DNA from: a virus | DNA: 25,487 bases | Reading direction: 5' to 3' (one strand) | Virus record (IMG/VR): IMGVR_UViG_3300033150_001189 | Coordinates: 1-25,487 of that record | Part shown: positions 1,444-25,306 of the stretch, in pieces | Numbering within the stretch: the stretch's first letter is position 1 | Layout: each line of letters starts with the position of its first letter | Notes under the pieces: model-generated | Databases searched by the model: none | The model's input: the letters and a program-made list of their open reading frames with translations, nothing else | Told to the model about the DNA's origin: nothing | Translations under genes and position numbers: made by a program

Positions 1444-1517
1444 GGTGGCGTAGTTCAATGGTAGAACGGGTGGCTTATAACCGCTTAACGAAGGTTCAAA
1501 TCCTTCCGCCACCACCA
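1444..1517 (+). tRNA. tRNA-Ile (anticodon UAU)
   Basis: A complete cloverleaf can be drawn: acceptor GGTGGCG pairing with CGCCACC, D stem GTTC/GAAC, anticodon stem GGTGG/CCGCT with loop CTTATAA (anticodon TAT at 1476-1478), T stem GAAGG/CCTTC with loop TTCAAAT, discriminator A and encoded CCA at 1515-1517. It would read AUA, a codon common in this AT-rich genome and rare in many hosts, which is a usual reason for phages to carry this tRNA. It lies inside a run of protein genes, with 8 bases before it and 14 after. Confidence 0.95.
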
Positions 1518-8146: not shown

Positions 8147-11100
8147 ATGGTTGATGATACAAAGCCATCTGGTCCACCTAGACGAGATATTAACCAGCAG
8201 CGAGCAGCTTCCATTAATAGTATGAATAATACTATGGAAAGACTTAAATCAACCGCTGAAGATATTCAAATAGATGCTGGAACAAGAACTGCAAGCGCTA
8301 GAGATATTAGCTCAGTGACAAATATGATGAATAAAGTATTAGCAAATATTGAAAAATCTGTTAGTGTTACTATGAAAGGAATAAAAGATGTTTCTGCTGA
8401 GTCTTTAAGGGTTGTTAGTGAAACAGCGGATATCAATAAAACAAGATTGGTAGCGCAAACTTTAGCTAGGGCAACCCCTTTGTTTGGTCATTTTGCAGTT
8501 AAGTTTATGGAAACAAACGTTTGGAAAAATTTCTCAGCAAAAGTAAAACAAGAAATGGGAACAGCGCTGGCATATTCTGCTGGACAGTTCAAACAAGCAA
8601 TCGGATCAATCGGATCAAAGGCCATATCATTAATTCCAGGGATAGGGGAAAAAGAAAAAAGAACTGCACAAGTAAATGACGTTGCTTTAAGAAAAAGAAT
8701 TGAAAATTTAGAAAAAGAAGTTCCGAAATTACAAAAAGGTGGTGTTGTAGGAAAAGGTGGTCTTGCATATGTTCATCCTGCAGAGGTAGTTGCCCCGGCA
8801 GAAAAAATTGTTTCTGGCATTGGTGAAAAGTTTAATGAAGCAACTCAAAAACAAATGAAATCTTTGCAGGGAATGATTGAATTTGCTGTTGATGTTAAGA
8901 AAAATGAATATCAAGGATTATTTGCTCCCATTAAAACATTTTTTAAATCTTATAAGAAAGCATTAGGCCCAAAAAATACTCAAGAATTAATGCTTCGTCA
9001 ATTAATTCAAATAAGACAAACTGTCTCTCCTTTATCTAAACAAAGTTTCTTTAGAGAAGCTTGGGCAATGACTTTGACCCAACATCCTATGTTCAGGCTT
9101 CTTGTATCTTCAATGAAAAAATTAACTACATCTGCAATTTCTGTTATAACATTTCCATTTAGAATGGCTGGCGGATATGAAGCAGAAATTCCAAAACAAA
9201 GAGCAGGAAGTATATTTTCTTGGATTGGATCTATGATATATGCTGGGTATGGGCATACTGCAAGAAGATTAGATCTGATTAAATCATATACAAGACAAAC
9301 TGCGGAAAGACTCGGAGTTTTGATAAGTCATGTTACTGGACAGAAAGTTGGTCCAGTTAAAGATGAATCAAAGAAAAAAACTTGGTTGCCTCTAAAGGTA
9401 GCAAAAAGACTTGCAATCGGCGCAGCTGGATTGCAAGCTGCAAGTTATCTTGCTCCTCTTGCTGGTTTTGGCGGATTAGGATCGTTAATTGGAGGCGGGA
9501 CTGGTGCAGTCGGAGGGTTATTAGGAGGTGGCACAGCCATTTCTGTAATATCTCAACTTCTTCCTGCAATAGGGGCATTATTAGTGGCAGGTTACGCAAC
9601 TAAAAAATTAGTTGGCGTAGCTAAAAAGAAACAACTTCCGGGCGGAATAGATGAGAAAGTAAAAGCTTTACCGCCAGGACAACCAATATCAGAACAGATT
9701 TCTTTGCCAACGGAAGAACTTTTAGCTTTGCCTCCCGGAGAAAGTTCATATGAAAAAATAACAATGCCTAAACATGAAATACGTAAATTAGAAATAACAA
9801 GAGAATCTGGATTTTTAAATATCTTAGCTATTAAAGAAATGGTTTATGATATTAAGAAATTCTTATTTGGAAAGTCAAAAGAAGATATACAACATAGAGA
9901 AAAAAGCCATAAAGTAACTAAATCAATTGAAGAAAAGGCATCCAATATATACCAAGAACAAAGCAAAACGAGAAAAGGTTTACATGATTGGATGATGATT
10001 TTATTTCCAACATTTATAGCAATTAAAAATGTTATTTCTAGAATGTTTAGAAAAGTTGGAATGATTGGAAAGGGAATATTTAACATAGGAAGAATTATTG
10101 GAAGCGGTTTAGTTGGAACAATGTCAAAACTTTCTTCTTTTCTTGCAAAAAGTATTCTAGGAATTGCAGGAACATCATTCGGTTCAGTATTATTCGCTGG
10201 AGCTGGAGGATATCTTTTAGGATCTTTATTAAACAAATTTATTATTAATCCACTTCAAGAAAAATGGAAAAAGGAAAGAGAAGAAAAAAGAAAATCTGCG
10301 ATAAGAGTGTCTGAGAAAAAAACTAGTGGAATTATTGAAGGATTAAAAACTGCATTACCTGAAGAGGAAGAAGCTGCTAGACAAAGAGTTTCAATAATTG
10401 GAAAAGGCGGTGGTTTAGGGGAAATTGGAAAAAGAAGACGAGAATCATATGGCGGTATTTTAACTGGAGTTACTGGAATTGACGTTTCAACTATACAAGC
10501 AGCTCAAGATGCAATGATGGCAAAACATGCAGATTTTTATAGGCAGTATGCAACAAACGGAGAGCAATTAGCTAGACTAAGAGGGGTATATTTATCTGGT
10601 CCATTTGCATTTAGAACAAAAAATGCTACAGAGGATGAATTTGAATATGGATTAAAACGGGAACTTATGTTCCAAGAATGGTTAAAGTTAAATGCTAAAA
10701 AAATTCAAGATCTTGGATTAGATATTGATTATAGCACTGCGTATAGGATAGGAAAAGATAAAGAAGGAATTATGAGTGCTATTGGTAAATATGGAAGTAT
10801 ATTAATGTCTCCATTGCATGTAGCAAGAAGAATTGGTTTCCAATATGGCGGTGTTGTGAAAGGAAGACCAGGCGTAGATATGGTCCCTGCAATGTTAACT
10901 GCGGGAGAGTATGTATTAACCGAAGGTGAAACATCCACAATGATTGGATCATTGAAAGAAATTGAAAGGCATACAGGGACTTTGGCTAAAATAGAAGTTT
11001 ATAGATTCAAAAAAGAAAAAGAAGCAGAACGATCTATCTTTGGAGAAATGTTTACAAGGGAACCATCCAAAAGAGGAACAATGCCTGGAATAACTAGAGT

Positions 11101-11908
11101 TTCAAAACCGCCTAGAATTGAGTCTGCAACAAAAAGAGGGATTTCCGGAATATCAGAGGAAATTGTGTGGCCAACAGAACATAATGTAATTACGTCAGGA
11201 TATGGTCCTCGAAGAGTTCCTGGAGGAAGTAAATTTCATAGAGGGGTGGATATAAGAGCTAGGATGGGCGACCCTGTATACTCGGTTTTACCAGGAACTG
11301 TTTCTTTTGTTGGAGGAAATTATGGAACGGTTGATATTGAACATGAGGGAGGTTTAAGATCTAGATATTTACATTTAAGTGGGTTTGGAGTATCTAAAGG
11401 TGATAAAGTTGAAGCTGGTCAAATAATAGGAACGGCTGGAGGAACAGGGCCTTACGGAACAAATCAATATACTCCGCATTTACATTTTGATTTAAGACGA
11501 GGCAAAGCAATAGGAAAAAGTGCAAACTGGATCAATCCAGAAAACTGGTTTAGATCAAAAGGATCAGATTTTTCATATAAAGGAGGCGCAATAGGAGGCC
11601 CTGGAATATCTGGTCATGTTTCAGAATTAGGAACAGAATTTTCCTATGAAGCAAATGAACTAGCAAAAATGGATGTAGTAAGAAATTTAGCTGGCGCCTC
11701 AATGATAAGTAGCGAAAATAGAAAATTACAAGGATTATTAAGTGACAGTGTTTCTAAGAGTTCTACGGAAGTTACAAATAATGTAACAAACTTAACAAAC
11801 TCAATAACAAATTCATTAAGACAATTAAATAATAGCGGGAATAGAGATCAATCAAATCAACCATCTGGTATAGCAGTTGCTAATATTTTATCGGGTAATT
11901 TTAACTAA
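8147..11908 (+). CDS. Tail tape measure protein with C-terminal M23 peptidase domain
   Basis: This 1253-residue protein is the largest in the window. The N-terminal 200 residues are helical and polar. Hydrophobic glycine/alanine-rich segments at about 421-487 and 671-695 are typical of tape measure proteins. Two Gly-Gly-Val-Val motifs occur near 197 and 899; the second reads GGVVKGRPGVDMVPAMLT, a sequence common at tape measure C-termini. Residues of about 1010-1130 form an M23 (LytM-type) endopeptidase with zinc ligands H1031 and D1035 (FHRGVDI), H1076 (YLHLS) and H1111-x-H1113 (HLHF), all intact. The protein should set tail length, and its peptidase could open peptidoglycan during injection. 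Start: ATG 8147 after AAAGAGG. The next gene follows after 14 bases, as gp48 follows the T4 tape measure gene 29. Confidence 0.9.
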   Translation: MVDDTKPSGPPRRDINQQRAASINSMNNTMERLKSTAEDIQIDAGTRTASARDISSVTNMMNKVLANIEKSVSVTMKGIKDVSAESLRVVSETADINKTRLVAQTLARATPLFGHFAVKFMETNVWKNFSAKVKQEMGTALAYSAGQFKQAIGSIGSKAISLIPGIGEKEKRTAQVNDVALRKRIENLEKEVPKLQKGGVVGKGGLAYVHPAEVVAPAEKIVSGIGEKFNEATQKQMKSLQGMIEFAVDVKKNEYQGLFAPIKTFFKSYKKALGPKNTQELMLRQLIQIRQTVSPLSKQSFFREAWAMTLTQHPMFRLLVSSMKKLTTSAISVITFPFRMAGGYEAEIPKQRAGSIFSWIGSMIYAGYGHTARRLDLIKSYTRQTAERLGVLISHVTGQKVGPVKDESKKKTWLPLKVAKRLAIGAAGLQAASYLAPLAGFGGLGSLIGGGTGAVGGLLGGGTAISVISQLLPAIGALLVAGYATKKLVGVAKKKQLPGGIDEKVKALPPGQPISEQISLPTEELLALPPGESSYEKITMPKHEIRKLEITRESGFLNILAIKEMVYDIKKFLFGKSKEDIQHREKSHKVTKSIEEKASNIYQEQSKTRKGLHDWMMILFPTFIAIKNVISRMFRKVGMIGKGIFNIGRIIGSGLVGTMSKLSSFLAKSILGIAGTSFGSVLFAGAGGYLLGSLLNKFIINPLQEKWKKEREEKRKSAIRVSEKKTSGIIEGLKTALPEEEEAARQRVSIIGKGGGLGEIGKRRRESYGGILTGVTGIDVSTIQAAQDAMMAKHADFYRQYATNGEQLARLRGVYLSGPFAFRTKNATEDEFEYGLKRELMFQEWLKLNAKKIQDLGLDIDYSTAYRIGKDKEGIMSAIGKYGSILMSPLHVARRIGFQYGGVVKGRPGVDMVPAMLTAGEYVLTEGETSTMIGSLKEIERHTGTLAKIEVYRFKKEKEAERSIFGEMFTREPSKRGTMPGITRVSKPPRIESATKRGISGISEEIVWPTEHNVITSGYGPRRVPGGSKFHRGVDIRARMGDPVYSVLPGTVSFVGGNYGTVDIEHEGGLRSRYLHLSGFGVSKGDKVEAGQIIGTAGGTGPYGTNQYTPHLHFDLRRGKAIGKSANWINPENWFRSKGSDFSYKGGAIGGPGISGHVSELGTEFSYEANELAKMDVVRNLAGASMISSENRKLQGLLSDSVSKSSTEVTNNVTNLTNSITNSLRQLNNSGNRDQSNQPSGIAVANILSGNFN

Positions 11909-18001: not shown

Positions 18002-18433
18002 TTATTTTCGCTCCAATGAAAAATATAGATTCTCATCTATTGTTGCAGATAACTTTGATCTTTCTTGTCCATATTTAACGTATATGTCAAAAGTAAATCC
18101 TTTTTTATTTGATAAAAATTGTACGTTTATTTGTTCAATCTCAGCTCTGCTATCATACATCATTAACCTGTAATGTATTTCATCGATAATTTTTTCTTTT
18201 GTTTCTTCATCTGCCGGTTCAAATATCATTTTTATTAATTCGCTTCCATATTCTGGATCAAACGTATATGATCTCAACGGAGTTAATAAAATGTTATTCC
18301 ATGAATTTAAAATAACATTTATATCACTAACTCTTTTGAAGTCTCCTGAAGGATATATTGTTTGGAAATAATCACTAATTTTACTTTCTGATCCTACAGA
18401 ATTTTCTCTGAATCTATCTAGTAAATTAGCCAT
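18002..18433 (-). CDS. Baseplate wedge protein, T4 gp25-like (GPW/gp25 family)
   Basis: The 143-residue product matches the gp25 family in length (T4 gp25 is 132) and in its core: LLTPLRSYTFDPEYGSEL (residues 49-66), then FEPADEETKEKIIDEI (71-86) and the strand after SRAEIEQINV. The family includes the conserved E-P motif seen here at E72-P73. In T4, gp25 joins the wedge to the tail sheath initiator and stabilises the gp6 ring. The gene follows the frameshift-extension reading frame by two bases; the ribosome binding site is weak (GGAGG is 23 bases upstream, AAAGAAAT nearer), suggesting coupling with upstream translation. Confidence 0.88.
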   Translation of the reverse strand: MANLLDRFRENSVGSESKISDYFQTIYPSGDFKRVSDINVILNSWNNILLTPLRSYTFDPEYGSELIKMIFEPADEETKEKIIDEIHYRLMMYDSRAEIEQINVQFLSNKKGFTFDIYVKYGQERSKLSATIDENLYFSLERK

Positions 18434-18435
18434 AA

Positions 18436-18636
18436 TTATTTCTTTTTATATTCCTCCATTAGTTTTTGTTTTTCTTCTTCCAGCTCAGATTTCCATTTAA
18501 GTAAATCAGTGAATCTTTTAATTGGCATAAACATTATAGATAAATATTCTTGTTTGCACATTTCCATGCAAGTAAAAATATTTTCTTTTAATGTTTTTCT
18601 GTACTGGGAAACCTTATCATGAGCTGTATACCATTC
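18436..18636 (-). CDS. Probable +1 frameshift extension of the gp26/gp51-like gene (66 codons)
   Basis: This frame is open for 66 codons from the slip site to the TAA at 18436-18438 and reads EWYTAHDKVSQYRKTLKENI, then MPIKRFTDLLKWKSELEE. The composition is that of a real protein (amphipathic, ends in a charged helix). Inside it an ATG at 18567 could start a 43-residue protein, but it has no ribosome binding site, whereas neighbouring genes have clear ones. The simplest reading is that it is translated by a +1 shift from the upstream gene, giving a 323-residue fusion, comparable with the two-product tail assembly chaperones of many tailed phages. A free-standing 43-residue gene or a sequencing indel in the T run are the alternatives. 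Confidence 0.6.
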   Translation of the reverse strand, partial: EWYTAHDKVSQYRKTLKENIFTCMEMCKQEYLSIMFMPIKRFTDLLKWKSELEEEKQKLMEEYKKK

Positions 18637-19408
18637 GAAAAAAGTTGGACACTAAATCAATGTCTATAACTTCATCGTTGCCGCAGTGAATGCAATTAGT
18701 TCTCATTTTTAAGAATATGCCATAATTTCCAAACTCTTTCATATATGATTCAAAAATAACTTTCTTATCTCTTGATGGTAACGTTTTATAGGCATCTAAT
18801 ATATCAACTTTATCTTTGTAAACTAGAGGGTCAGCTTGTTCCGGAATATCCTGCTCAAAAGAATCAATAATTAAGATCTCGTTGATTAAAGATGAGCTTG
18901 ACCCAGGTCGATTGCCTAAACTTTTTATTGAAGATATTTCATCCTTTAAAGTAGGTTGTTTAATAACTGCAGTGACACCTTTAGATATTTTTAACGGAAC
19001 TTTGACTTTATGTTTTAAGATATTTTCTCCTGGATACGCTTCATATGAAAAAGTATCTGAAGCTTTGACTGTTACTGGATAATCTCTTCCGCACGAACCA
19101 CATGTAATATCATAATTTCTAATTTCTTCATATGTTACATGATATAATCCATACAAAAGCGCATCTCTATCTTTTAAAGTAACTGACTTCAAAAACGTTT
19201 CAAAGTCTTTGATATGTTCTGGTTTGGAAGTAATGCAATCATAGATTGCTTTATTCAAATGCTCTGTTACTTTATGTGGAGATAATAAACTGCCTTTTAA
19301 GTTTTCTTCCTCTTGTACGTTTAAACTTCTAACATTAAATGACAATTTTGTCTGCGGTGTTATGACCTCATATTCTGGATACTTTAAGTTAAAACCTGTA
19401 AATACCAT
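18617..19408 (-). CDS. T4 gp26/gp51-like baseplate assembly protein with zinc ribbon
   Basis: The 263-residue product has an N-terminal strand-rich part, a four-cysteine zinc-ribbon pair (C103-x2-C106 in ITCGSCGRDY, C239-x2-C242 in NCIHCGND) and a helical region between (LPSRDKKVIFESYMKEFGNY). This layout resembles the T4 baseplate hub assembly family (gp26/gp51). T4 gp51 is needed catalytically to form the hub; related proteins may act as tape measure chaperones. AGGAGG lies upstream of ATG 19408, and a T4-type late promoter is 86 bases upstream. The end of the frame contains a T6 slip site leading to a 66-codon extension. Family assignment is from pattern and location (just before gp25). 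Confidence 0.68.
   Translation of the reverse strand: MVFTGFNLKYPEYEVITPQTKLSFNVRSLNVQEEENLKGSLLSPHKVTEHLNKAIYDCITSKPEHIKDFETFLKSVTLKDRDALLYGLYHVTYEEIRNYDITCGSCGRDYPVTVKASDTFSYEAYPGENILKHKVKVPLKISKGVTAVIKQPTLKDEISSIKSLGNRPGSSSSLINEILIIDSFEQDIPEQADPLVYKDKVDILDAYKTLPSRDKKVIFESYMKEFGNYGIFLKMRTNCIHCGNDEVIDIDLVSNFFRMVYSS
18637..18643 (-). other. Candidate +1 ribosomal frameshift site (TTT TTT C)
   Basis: In frame 0 the minus strand reads AAC TTT TTT CGA ATG, six codons before the stop. tRNA-Phe (anticodon GAA) on TTT can move one base forward to TTC, a better match, while the slow codon CGA waits in the A site. The +1 frame then reads GAA TGG and stays open for 66 codons. Confidence 0.5.
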
Positions 19409-19501: not shown

Positions 19502-19875
19502 TGGTATGCCTTTTCGTACAAAAGCATCCTCTATTTTTTCAATTGTTCTTTTTTCTTTTCTAGTTTTTGCTAGTTTTTTTCCAATTTGTTTATCACATCT
19601 ATACATTTTTCTGGATTCTCTTTTAATTTACATTCTTTTTTTGCTACTTGAGCTAATTCTATTTTTTCTCAATAATTTTTACATCATATTGCGATTTACA
19701 AAAATCATTTTTACCACTAACTCTATTTCGCTTGCTGACTAATCCTTTTATAGTCCTCCAAATTAGCCTTCGACTGGAGTGATATACTCCAACCTACACC
19801 TTTTTCTGATATTAGATCTTTTATTTTAGAATTCTTAAATCTTTTTTCAAGTAGCTTTTTGTCTTTTTCATCAAG

Positions 19876-19920
19876 ATTAAAATACATTTCACCATCTAAT
19901 AATAATCCCATAATTTGATG
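19876..19920 (-). repeat. 45-base exact direct repeat, copy in pseudogene
   Basis: The same 45 bases occur at 20583-20627 (about 707 bases away, same orientation). They encode most of HQIMGLLLDGEMYFNL in both copies. Similarity beyond the exact block extends over about 200 bases with scattered substitutions, which marks a tandem gene duplication. Confidence 0.85.
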
Positions 19921-20049
19921 TATGTTTGCTTCTTTTATGAAATTCAAAGTTTGTATCTTTGAATTTTTAGATAACTTAGATTCAGTCACTATATGTCCAG
20001 TAATTAATTTTAAGATTTTTTGTTCATTTAAATATCTCCGATTTAATCT

Positions 20050-20063: not shown

Positions 20064-20735
20064 TTATGACATCATTCTTATCTTATCATTCACTTTTCTT
20101 AATTTCTTTTCAGTACTATCAATCATAGACTTAATCTTTTTTGTACATTTTTCTGGGTTCTTAGCATTTTTGCATTTAGCTACCATAGATTTTAATTTTG
20201 ATATTTTCTTTTCAAGCCCGATTGCTTTACATTTTTGAATACAAACATGTCTTTGATTTCCCTCAAGTTTGGCACATTTTCTTCCGCAACTAGTTATAGT
20301 ACCACTCAATTCTGACATTAATCCTCTAAATACTTTAGGACCAAAATACAAAGTAATTATTGTCATACCTGTAAGAATTGACAATATGGTGGCCGCTTCA
20401 ACGTCTCTCATCCCAATATTAGATAAAGCATTGCCCGCTTTGGTTACTATATCTTTCCCGATATTAGCGGCTGCTGATACAGCCTTTGCGGGATCAAACT
20501 CAAGAAGATTTTCATTTATTTTTCTATAAACTTTAGAATTCTTAAATCTTTTTTCAAGTAACCGTTTCTCTTCTTTAGTTAAATTAAAATACATTTCACC
20601 ATCTAATAATAATCCCATAATTTGATGAGTATTTGCTTCTTTTATAAAGTTTAAAGTTTGTATCTTTGAATTTTTAGATAGCTTAGATTCCATTATCATA
20701 TGTCCACTAATTAATTTTAAACTTTTGTTATTCAT
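20064..20735 (-). CDS. Membrane-segment protein with twin CX3C cysteine array (223 aa)
   Basis: The protein has three parts: an N-terminal domain (residues about 12-66, SKLSKNSKIQTLNFIKEAN to KRLLEKRFKNSK) that is also in the adjacent pseudogene; a hydrophobic segment (about 115-137, ATILSILTGMTIITLYFG) likely to be a membrane span; and a C-terminal helical region with six cysteines spaced C-x3-C-x10-C-x3-C-x18-C-x8-C. The next gene upstream has the same array after a similar YFG segment. Twin CX3C pairs usually staple a helical hairpin by disulfides or bind zinc. A virion or envelope-facing role is possible since it lies between tail tube and baseplate genes, but the family is not recognised. 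AAAGGAGAG precedes ATG 20735. Confidence 0.78.
   Translation of the reverse strand: MNNKSLKLISGHMIMESKLSKNSKIQTLNFIKEANTHQIMGLLLDGEMYFNLTKEEKRLLEKRFKNSKVYRKINENLLEFDPAKAVSAAANIGKDIVTKAGNALSNIGMRDVEAATILSILTGMTIITLYFGPKVFRGLMSELSGTITSCGRKCAKLEGNQRHVCIQKCKAIGLEKKISKLKSMVAKCKNAKNPEKCTKKIKSMIDSTEKKLRKVNDKIRMMS
20583..20627 (-). repeat. 45-base exact direct repeat, copy in intact gene
   Basis: Identical to 19876-19920 and part of the tandem duplication of the N-terminal domain. Confidence 0.85.
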
Positions 20736-24125: not shown

Positions 24126-24698
24126 ATGAAACAACAAAAAATATCTGAAAGAGTAGATTATTACATAAATAAAATTAAACTAGTGAAAGAAAATAAGTAT
24201 GATTTTATAGTATCCGCTGGAGCCACTCCAATTTTTATTACTTTAGTTTCTACTATGGATAAAAGATTATCTAATCCTATGATTAGAAAGATGATCAAAG
24301 ATTACGATAAAAGATGTCTTGGTTGCAAACAAAAATTTTTAGACAATGAAACTATCAATACTTCAATTCAAGAACTAATAAAACAATTAAAACCAAATAA
24401 AATCCAAGAACTAATAAGAACAAAAAAAGAAGATTGCAGTAAAATATGGCAATCAAATCCAGATTTCGCAAGATGCTATTCAATGTCAAAACTTCTTTTT
24501 TGTAAAGATTACTTAAACTATATCAAAAATAATGATCCGCAACAAGTATGCAAAGGATTTATGCCAAAAAATGATTGCGTTGAATTATTTTCTAATAATT
24601 TAGATGACTTAGAAAGTCAAGTAATATATCTGATAAGTATTTTAAAAAATAAAAACGTTGTTAAATTTCCAATACAAAGAATGAAAAGGTTAATATAA
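24126..24698 (+). CDS. Cysteine-containing protein with possible membrane segment (190 aa)
   Basis: After a short charged N-terminus there is a hydrophobic segment (YDFIVSAGATPIFITLVSTM, about residues 27-46), then an amphipathic region and a cysteine-containing helical domain (CLGC, EDCSK, ARCYS, LFCKD, QVCKG, NDCVE; seven cysteines). The order of a membrane-like segment followed by cysteine pairs recalls the twin-CX3C proteins at 20-21 kb, though the spacing differs, so relation is uncertain. TCTGGAG precedes ATG 24126. Its stop overlaps the next ATG (TAATG), so it is coupled with the HAD protein gene. Family unknown. Confidence 0.75.
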   Translation: MKQQKISERVDYYINKIKLVKENKYDFIVSAGATPIFITLVSTMDKRLSNPMIRKMIKDYDKRCLGCKQKFLDNETINTSIQELIKQLKPNKIQELIRTKKEDCSKIWQSNPDFARCYSMSKLLFCKDYLNYIKNNDPQQVCKGFMPKNDCVELFSNNLDDLESQVIYLISILKNKNVVKFPIQRMKRLI

Positions 24699-25306
24699 TG
24701 GAAATATTACAAAGATATTTACTATATTTAAATGATCAAGTAAGTACAAGTTCTGGAATAGGATTTCATATAGATAGTGTATCTGATGATAGTAGAAATT
24801 TTTCTTTAGATAAAAGAAAAGATGGGTCAACTAAAACTTCAAATGATTTACTTTATTTATCTTTGATGATAAAACAATCAGAAAAACTAATATCAAGAAT
24901 GAAGAAAAATCTTAAGCTTAGTAAAGAACAATTTAATACAGAAAAAGATAAAGAAAGAATAATGATAGATTTTGATGGTGTTATTCATTCATATGATAAA
25001 GGATGGCAAGATGGCAGAATATATGGAAATCCAATTAAAGGAACAAAAGAAGCGCTAGAAAAATTAAGAAAAAAATATGAAATCGTAATCTTTACAACCA
25101 GAGCATCTAACAGGTTTAACGAAAGTCCAACATCAGATGAACTAATAGAAGATTTAAAAAAATGGTTAGCTAAACATGAAATCCCATATGATGAAATAAC
25201 GTCAGAAAAATATGGAGCAATAGCATATATTGATGATAAAGCTATTAGATTTGAAGGGAATTGGAGCTCAATACTTAGCAAACTAGAAAAACTAAATATA
25301 ATTTAA
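24698..25306 (+). CDS. HAD-superfamily phosphatase-like protein with N-terminal extension
   Basis: The C-terminal 120 residues show the four HAD motifs: I, IMIDFDGVIH with nucleophile D91 and acid D93; II, IFTTRAS with T133/T134; III, K171 in SEKYGAIAY; IV, YIDDKAI with D179/D180. The small cap position and lengths fit phosphatases of nucleotide or nucleic-acid 5'/3' ends seen in phages, such as the phosphatase domain of T4 Pnkp, but the substrate is not readable. The first 80 residues (MEILQRYLLYLNDQVSTSSG onward) have no catalytic motif and end in a charged helix; they may bind a partner. The start overlaps the previous stop, so the pair is expressed together. Confidence 0.86.
   Translation: MEILQRYLLYLNDQVSTSSGIGFHIDSVSDDSRNFSLDKRKDGSTKTSNDLLYLSLMIKQSEKLISRMKKNLKLSKEQFNTEKDKERIMIDFDGVIHSYDKGWQDGRIYGNPIKGTKEALEKLRKKYEIVIFTTRASNRFNESPTSDELIEDLKKWLAKHEIPYDEITSEKYGAIAYIDDKAIRFEGNWSSILSKLEKLNII

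Follow-up and report, generated by a model that had tools for sequence, protein, structure and literature searches.

Genes 26 and 51 reportedly constitute the tail assembly chaperone (TAC) pair of phage T4, and the 2022 work of Vladimirov et al. is said to describe frameshifting conserved in several other groups of T4-like phages. Among bacterial genes, prfB is translated with a +1 shift at CUU_UGA, aided by an upstream SD sequence. The PRFect (PMC10885494) and Adele (PMC12846349) papers cite T4-like phages with a short and a long chaperone gene, as well as poly-T slip sites in others, and the attribution cited there for the T4 pair, with gp26 as the short and gp51 as the long product, is Vladimirov, Gautam and Davidson (2022, Virology 566:9-15). 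A review of tail chaperone shifts lists -1, -2, and +1 events, with a +1 shift considered very likely in the haloarchaeal virus HSTV-2, and describes +1 shifting in the capsid and tail tube genes of Listeria phage PSA, at proline codons followed by a stop codon or a pseudoknot (PMC5009743). Finally, experiments have shown +1 shifting at UUU_CGN in influenza PA-X; for amalgaviruses, in which each of the four CGN codons is represented, it has been proposed (PMC5052127).

The locus analyzed here very probably carries a conserved programmed +1 frameshift site, through which a short and a long tail assembly chaperone would be made from one gene. The window, the entire 25,487-nucleotide stretch of an IMG/VR virus record (IMGVR_UViG_3300033150_001189), encodes on the minus strand a gp26/gp51-like protein of 263 aa (19408-18617), exactly where the sequence-only reading had placed it. 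The protein belongs to the Pfam family PF12322 (3e-10; 40.6 bits versus a gathering cut-off of 24.5) and matches PHROG 150 (baseplate hub). Structures of this frame-0 protein and of the extension described below were predicted separately; the AlphaFold2 (AF2) model of the former (pLDDT 85) has matches in a viral structure library, both to predicted T4-like baseplate hub proteins and to proteins from other large myophages, consistent with membership in the gp26/gp51 family. Nothing convincing was matched when the model was compared with PDB folds, nor when the frame-0 protein and the extension were searched against PDB sequences. Directly downstream lies a gp25-like baseplate wedge gene (18433-18002, minus strand; GPW_gp25, 6.4e-8), so that the gene neighbors gp25 within the baseplate operon in the T4 order, 26-25. 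T4 gp26, ending ...CPECGKTHAHVIRGLKEFFELL (C-terminus FFELL), stops at the same alignment position as the frame-0 protein of the window, ending ...CIHCGNDEVIDIDLVSNFFRMVYSS*. On these sequence comparisons, we assign the gene as a T4-type tail assembly chaperone (gp26 being the short and gp51 the long form), from which two products would be expected, and the source appears to be a large, contractile-tailed phage producing two chaperone forms from one gene.

The 263-aa ORF ends ...GTG TCC AAC TTT TTT CGA ATG GTA TAC AGC TCA TGA, so that its stop indeed falls six codons after AAC TTT TTT CGA, and the frame-0 tail past the slip site consists of MVYSS and the TGA stop (18634-18617, minus strand). 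The candidate slip heptamer, TTT_TTT_C (18643-18637, minus strand), comprises the codons TTT (18643-18641) and TTT (18640-18638), with tRNA-Phe predicted to re-pair on TTC (18639-18637) while the Arg codon CGA (18637-18635, minus strand; CGN in all relatives) occupies the A site. Reading TTT TTC GAA yields FF-EWYTAHDKVS...KKK*, that is, 66 codons after Phe. This +1-frame extension, (F)EWYTAHDKVS...EEYKKK plus stop (18639-18436, minus strand), would be the TAC-C-like C-terminal domain of the long product, the frame-0 protein being TAC-N-like. Its TAA stop (18438-18436) is followed two bases further by the ATG of the gp25-like gene at 18433, as the sequence-only reading had proposed.

Three scans of viral contigs yielded approximately 230 loci, of which 125 were sequence-distinct with both parts intact; these are mutually related, and the counts given for them do not represent 125 independent events. 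In the 2 loci lacking one of the parts, the gene adjoins the contig end. Although the proteins of the relatives diverge from those of the window by up to ~45%, the motif TT[T/C]_TTT_CGN is found in frame at the junction, where frame 0 and the +1 frame overlap, in 125/125 loci. Every one of these has its extension in +1, and no in-frame fusion was found. A second, C-terminally extended form is thus encoded in every distinct locus, and the proposed slip from TTT to TTC with CGA as the next codon finds support in the relatives. The same arrangement recurs in one viral contig beyond the 125 and in 2 loci on contigs of metagenome-assembled genomes (MAGs) assigned to Lokiarchaeota and Thermoplasmatales. 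Some members of the clade lie on contigs of over 200 kb.

Codon choice at the site departs strongly from that of the surrounding genes. Of the two Phe codons, the second is TTT in all 125 loci, the first TTT in 117 and TTC in 8, whereas TTT makes up 77% of Phe codons in the gene bodies of the relatives. The Arg codon is CGT in 53 loci, CGC in 42, CGA in 17, and CGG in 13, whereas ~80% of Arg codons in the gene bodies are AGA or AGG (85% in a 73-locus set) and ~20% are CGN; the CGC fraction alone is 0.34 at the site versus 0.02 in gene bodies. In the window's own genes, CGN accounts for 35/277 Arg codons. Immediately 5' of the site, conserved Leu and Val codons vary freely at their third positions, which indicates that the constraint at the slip site is local. 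In all relatives, the frame-0 stop lies 5 to 9 codons past CGN (exactly 6 in 80/93), and the +1 frame is usually closed 4 to 10 codons 5' of the slip site. The search for stimulators revealed an SD-like element near the site in 0/93 loci and no convincing or stable RNA structure (mean z -0.6 to -1.2). A -1 slippery heptamer (X_XXY_YYZ) was rejected for the window clade, given that the extension is in the +1 frame in 125/125 loci and the -1 frame closes early, and so was a site of the prfB type, given the lack of an SD-like element (0/93) and an A-site codon that is CGN rather than a stop.

The extension behaves as protein-coding sequence, as the sequence-only reading had suspected. It spans ~60 to 75 codons in the relatives and evolves under purifying constraint in the +1 frame (Ka/Ks ~0.29; gene body, ~0.20), so that protein-level selection acts on both overlapping frames. 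Off-frame starts within the same gene bodies remain open for at least 60 codons in 0.15% of trials, and the occurrence of +1 extensions at the same spot in 125/125 loci is therefore beyond chance. Residues E26, P39, W49, and K50 are invariant among the relatives, and the AF2 model (pLDDT 87) consists of 2 long helices (2-28 and 40-66). Searched alone against Pfam, PHROGs, and NCBIfam, the extension produced weak, scattered, and unconvincing matches, and tblastn against named phages produced none; P2 GpE, considered as a possible relative, did not appear in the Pfam scan. Aligned with hhalign to the C-terminus of T4 gp51, the extension scored P 0.002, with 0/150 column shuffles reaching the score but only 17 columns aligned, whereas 19/150 column shuffles reached the score of its alignment to the cyanophage extension. 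Homology between the window-clade extension and the gp51 C-terminus is, on this evidence, suggestive only.

The sequence-only reading had named a homopolymer indel as the main alternative, in which five T and a single continuous reading frame would be disguised by an assembly error. Although the T6 run is a plausible spot for such errors, 125/125 distinct contigs from many metagenomes are out of frame alike and none is fused, 8 loci carry TTC TTT in place of T6, and the choice of a CGN codon at the site is under selection; the indel is in practice ruled out, and we give it virtually no probability. Some genes employ RNA polymerase slippage, which on the six identical bases would generate mRNAs of altered length. 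Six-base runs are, however, short for slippage, the run is broken in the TTC_TTT variants, and slippage would exert no selection in favor of CGN over AGA, making this explanation exceedingly improbable. Alternatively, the extension might be a second gene, initiated at a start codon of its own with translational coupling to the 263-aa ORF. Similar pieces are listed as genes of their own in cyanophage and jumbo-phage annotations, and the window extension contains five in-frame ATGs (codons 24, 26, 35, 37, and 60), rather than the single internal ATG counted previously. No start codon is conserved among the relatives, in which the first possible start lies a median of 23 codons into the extension and is preceded by a good Shine-Dalgarno (SD) sequence in only 3% of loci, whereas SD sequences before gene starts are strong in 93/93. 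Some relatives have no start before codon 35-38, and a gene beginning there would be missing half the conserved domain. A conserved start with a ribosome binding site, the expected mark of a stand-alone gene, was thus not found, and a separate gene would leave the invariant TTT_CGN unexplained; we regard it as highly improbable. Taken together, selection for CGN, conservation of the frame, constraint on the protein, and the lack of an SD-led start make it unlikely that the arrangement reflects an assembly error or a stand-alone gene.

The direction of the shift requires separate consideration, as both +1 and -2 slips lead into the frame of the extension, the latter with one Phe added. A -2 shift is known from phage Mu (PMC5009743), and the T6 run would permit the corresponding re-pairing in the P site. 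In the 8 TTC_TTT_CGN loci, however, a -2 slip would produce a mid-codon mismatch, and these loci nonetheless keep the +1 frame; there, tRNA-Phe could re-pair one base forward on TTC, not two back, which favors +1. Nor does a -2 slip have any need for conservation of CGN. The TTC_TTT_CGN variants and the selection for CGN thus appear to favor +1 over -2, and we consider the -2 slip very improbable.

Under the +1 model, most ribosomes would read through UUU UUU CGN AUG... in frame 0 and terminate about six codons further, releasing a short chaperone similar to T4 gp26. A minority would slip +1 with the second UUU and its tRNA-Phe in the P site while the slow CGN codon occupies the A site; tRNA-Phe would then re-pair on UUC, and a conserved helical domain of 60 to 75 residues would be added, giving a long chaperone functionally similar to T4 gp51. 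The frameshift rate, governed by the slow CGN codon, would determine the ratio of short to long form. By analogy with TAC biology, the tape measure protein would be coated by both forms, which would also recruit subunits of the tail tube or hub. The sequence comparisons establish the two overlapping frames, the conserved site, selection on both frames, the lack of a start for the second, and the PF12322 family of the first; shifting in vivo, its rate, and the chaperone role of both forms are predictions. The expected client would be the probable tape measure protein of 1253 aa (8147-11908, plus strand), which has PHROG M23/endolysin and tape-measure matches as well as NCBIfam matches to peptidoglycan hydrolases; its M23-type peptidase domain is located near the C-terminus (residues ~1005-1140).

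Against the archaeal labels of the two MAG contigs, the peptidoglycan-peptidase domain of the probable tape measure protein encoded by the window suggests a host among the bacteria. Among the other features of the window, a tRNA-Ile gene with the anticodon TAT (1444-1517, plus strand) would read AUA. The minus-strand ORFs 19723-19989 and 20064-20735 share a near-identical N-terminal stretch, SKLSKNSKIQTLNFIKEANxHQIMGLLLDGEMYFNL, and by this similarity represent a partial tandem duplication in which the 19723-19989 copy is short. A 202-aa ORF (24698-25306, plus strand) contains a putative HAD-phosphatase-like stretch (MIDFDGVIHSYDKGW...).

Other phages carry the same gene with an extension in the -1 frame. 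T_TTT_TTC is the junction site in three of these (cyanophage S-RIM8, Aeromonas phage 65.2, and Desulfovibrio phage SRB7757), and the corresponding TTTTTTC heptamer is present in 77/77 distinct marine T4-like loci. The fused cyanophage product aligns with T4 gp51 from end to end (hhalign, E 7e-17; C-terminal part alone, 5e-11), and the annotated 45-aa gp51 of Synechococcus phage S-RIM8 (1971-2869 of the examined piece) can therefore be recognized as the end of the -1 ORF that extends gp26. This -1 reading explains why cyanophage gp51 was noted in 2010 to be only ~20% of normal length (PMC3037559). In Aeromonas phage 65.2 (1911-2860 of the examined piece), gp26 is followed by an unannotated -1-frame extension of ~55 codons, and an extension of this type may, by analogy, explain the gp51 called missing in Aeh1. 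The homologues in the jumbo phages AR9, BpSp, several Staphylococcus phages, and phiR1-37 are likewise followed by -1-frame extensions, annotated as small hypothetical genes. The junctions in these Bacillus, Staphylococcus, and Yersinia phages are candidate shift sites, with T_TTT_TTT in BpSp and CTT_TTT or CTT_TTC in the others. Searches of viral contigs with the SRB7757 and AR9 proteins matched almost nothing.

That this gene gives two products, and that other groups use frameshifting, was known before; what appears new, judged by sequence, is an entire clade with a +1 site at UUU_CGN. Accordingly worded, the earlier suggestion that a +1 shift in a T4-like baseplate gene would be unusual stands for the direction of the shift and for UUU_CGN, but not for the existence of two products, already known for the family. 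The literature searched contained no report of UUU_CGN in a phage. We consider it likely that a large clade of uncultured myophages makes the T4-type chaperone pair through a +1 shift at UUU_CGN without a detectable stimulator, which would be the first conserved use by prokaryotic ribosomes of the influenza/amalgavirus motif and would add to a gene family that meets the same need for two products by -1 shifting, +1 shifting, and gene duplication.

Like phage lambda gpG/gpGT and other chaperone shifts, the locus would yield two products by a late frameshift that gives the long form an extra C-terminal domain, although lambda shifts -1 and the site of the window clade is +1. Like PSA and prfB, it would be a phage or bacterial case of +1 shifting, but its A site holds no stop codon and no SD-like element is present. 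For the site, a parallel exists in influenza A PA-X and the plant amalgaviruses, with which the window clade shares a predicted P-site slip from UUU to UUC and an A-site CGN represented by all four codons. Those are eukaryotic viruses translated by eukaryotic ribosomes, whereas here the motif lies in an assembly gene of a tailed phage, and no common origin is implied. Clade-wide conservation in phages suggests that the minimal requirement, re-pairing of Phe tRNA plus CGN, may be general to ribosomes. For annotation, it serves as a warning that the second form may be missed or called as a small separate gene. T4 gp26/gp51 and the window clade agree in Pfam family, gene order, and the position at which the short form ends, and the C-terminal domains of gp51 and the window long form are of similar size. 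T4, however, uses two genes, the cyanophages a -1 site (U_UUU_UUC), and the window clade a probable +1 slip at UUU_CGN, the latter two sites having a common U6C core that is entered in different frames. This chaperone gene family thus offers a natural experiment, in which the same two products would be obtained by a -1 shift, a +1 shift, or separate genes.
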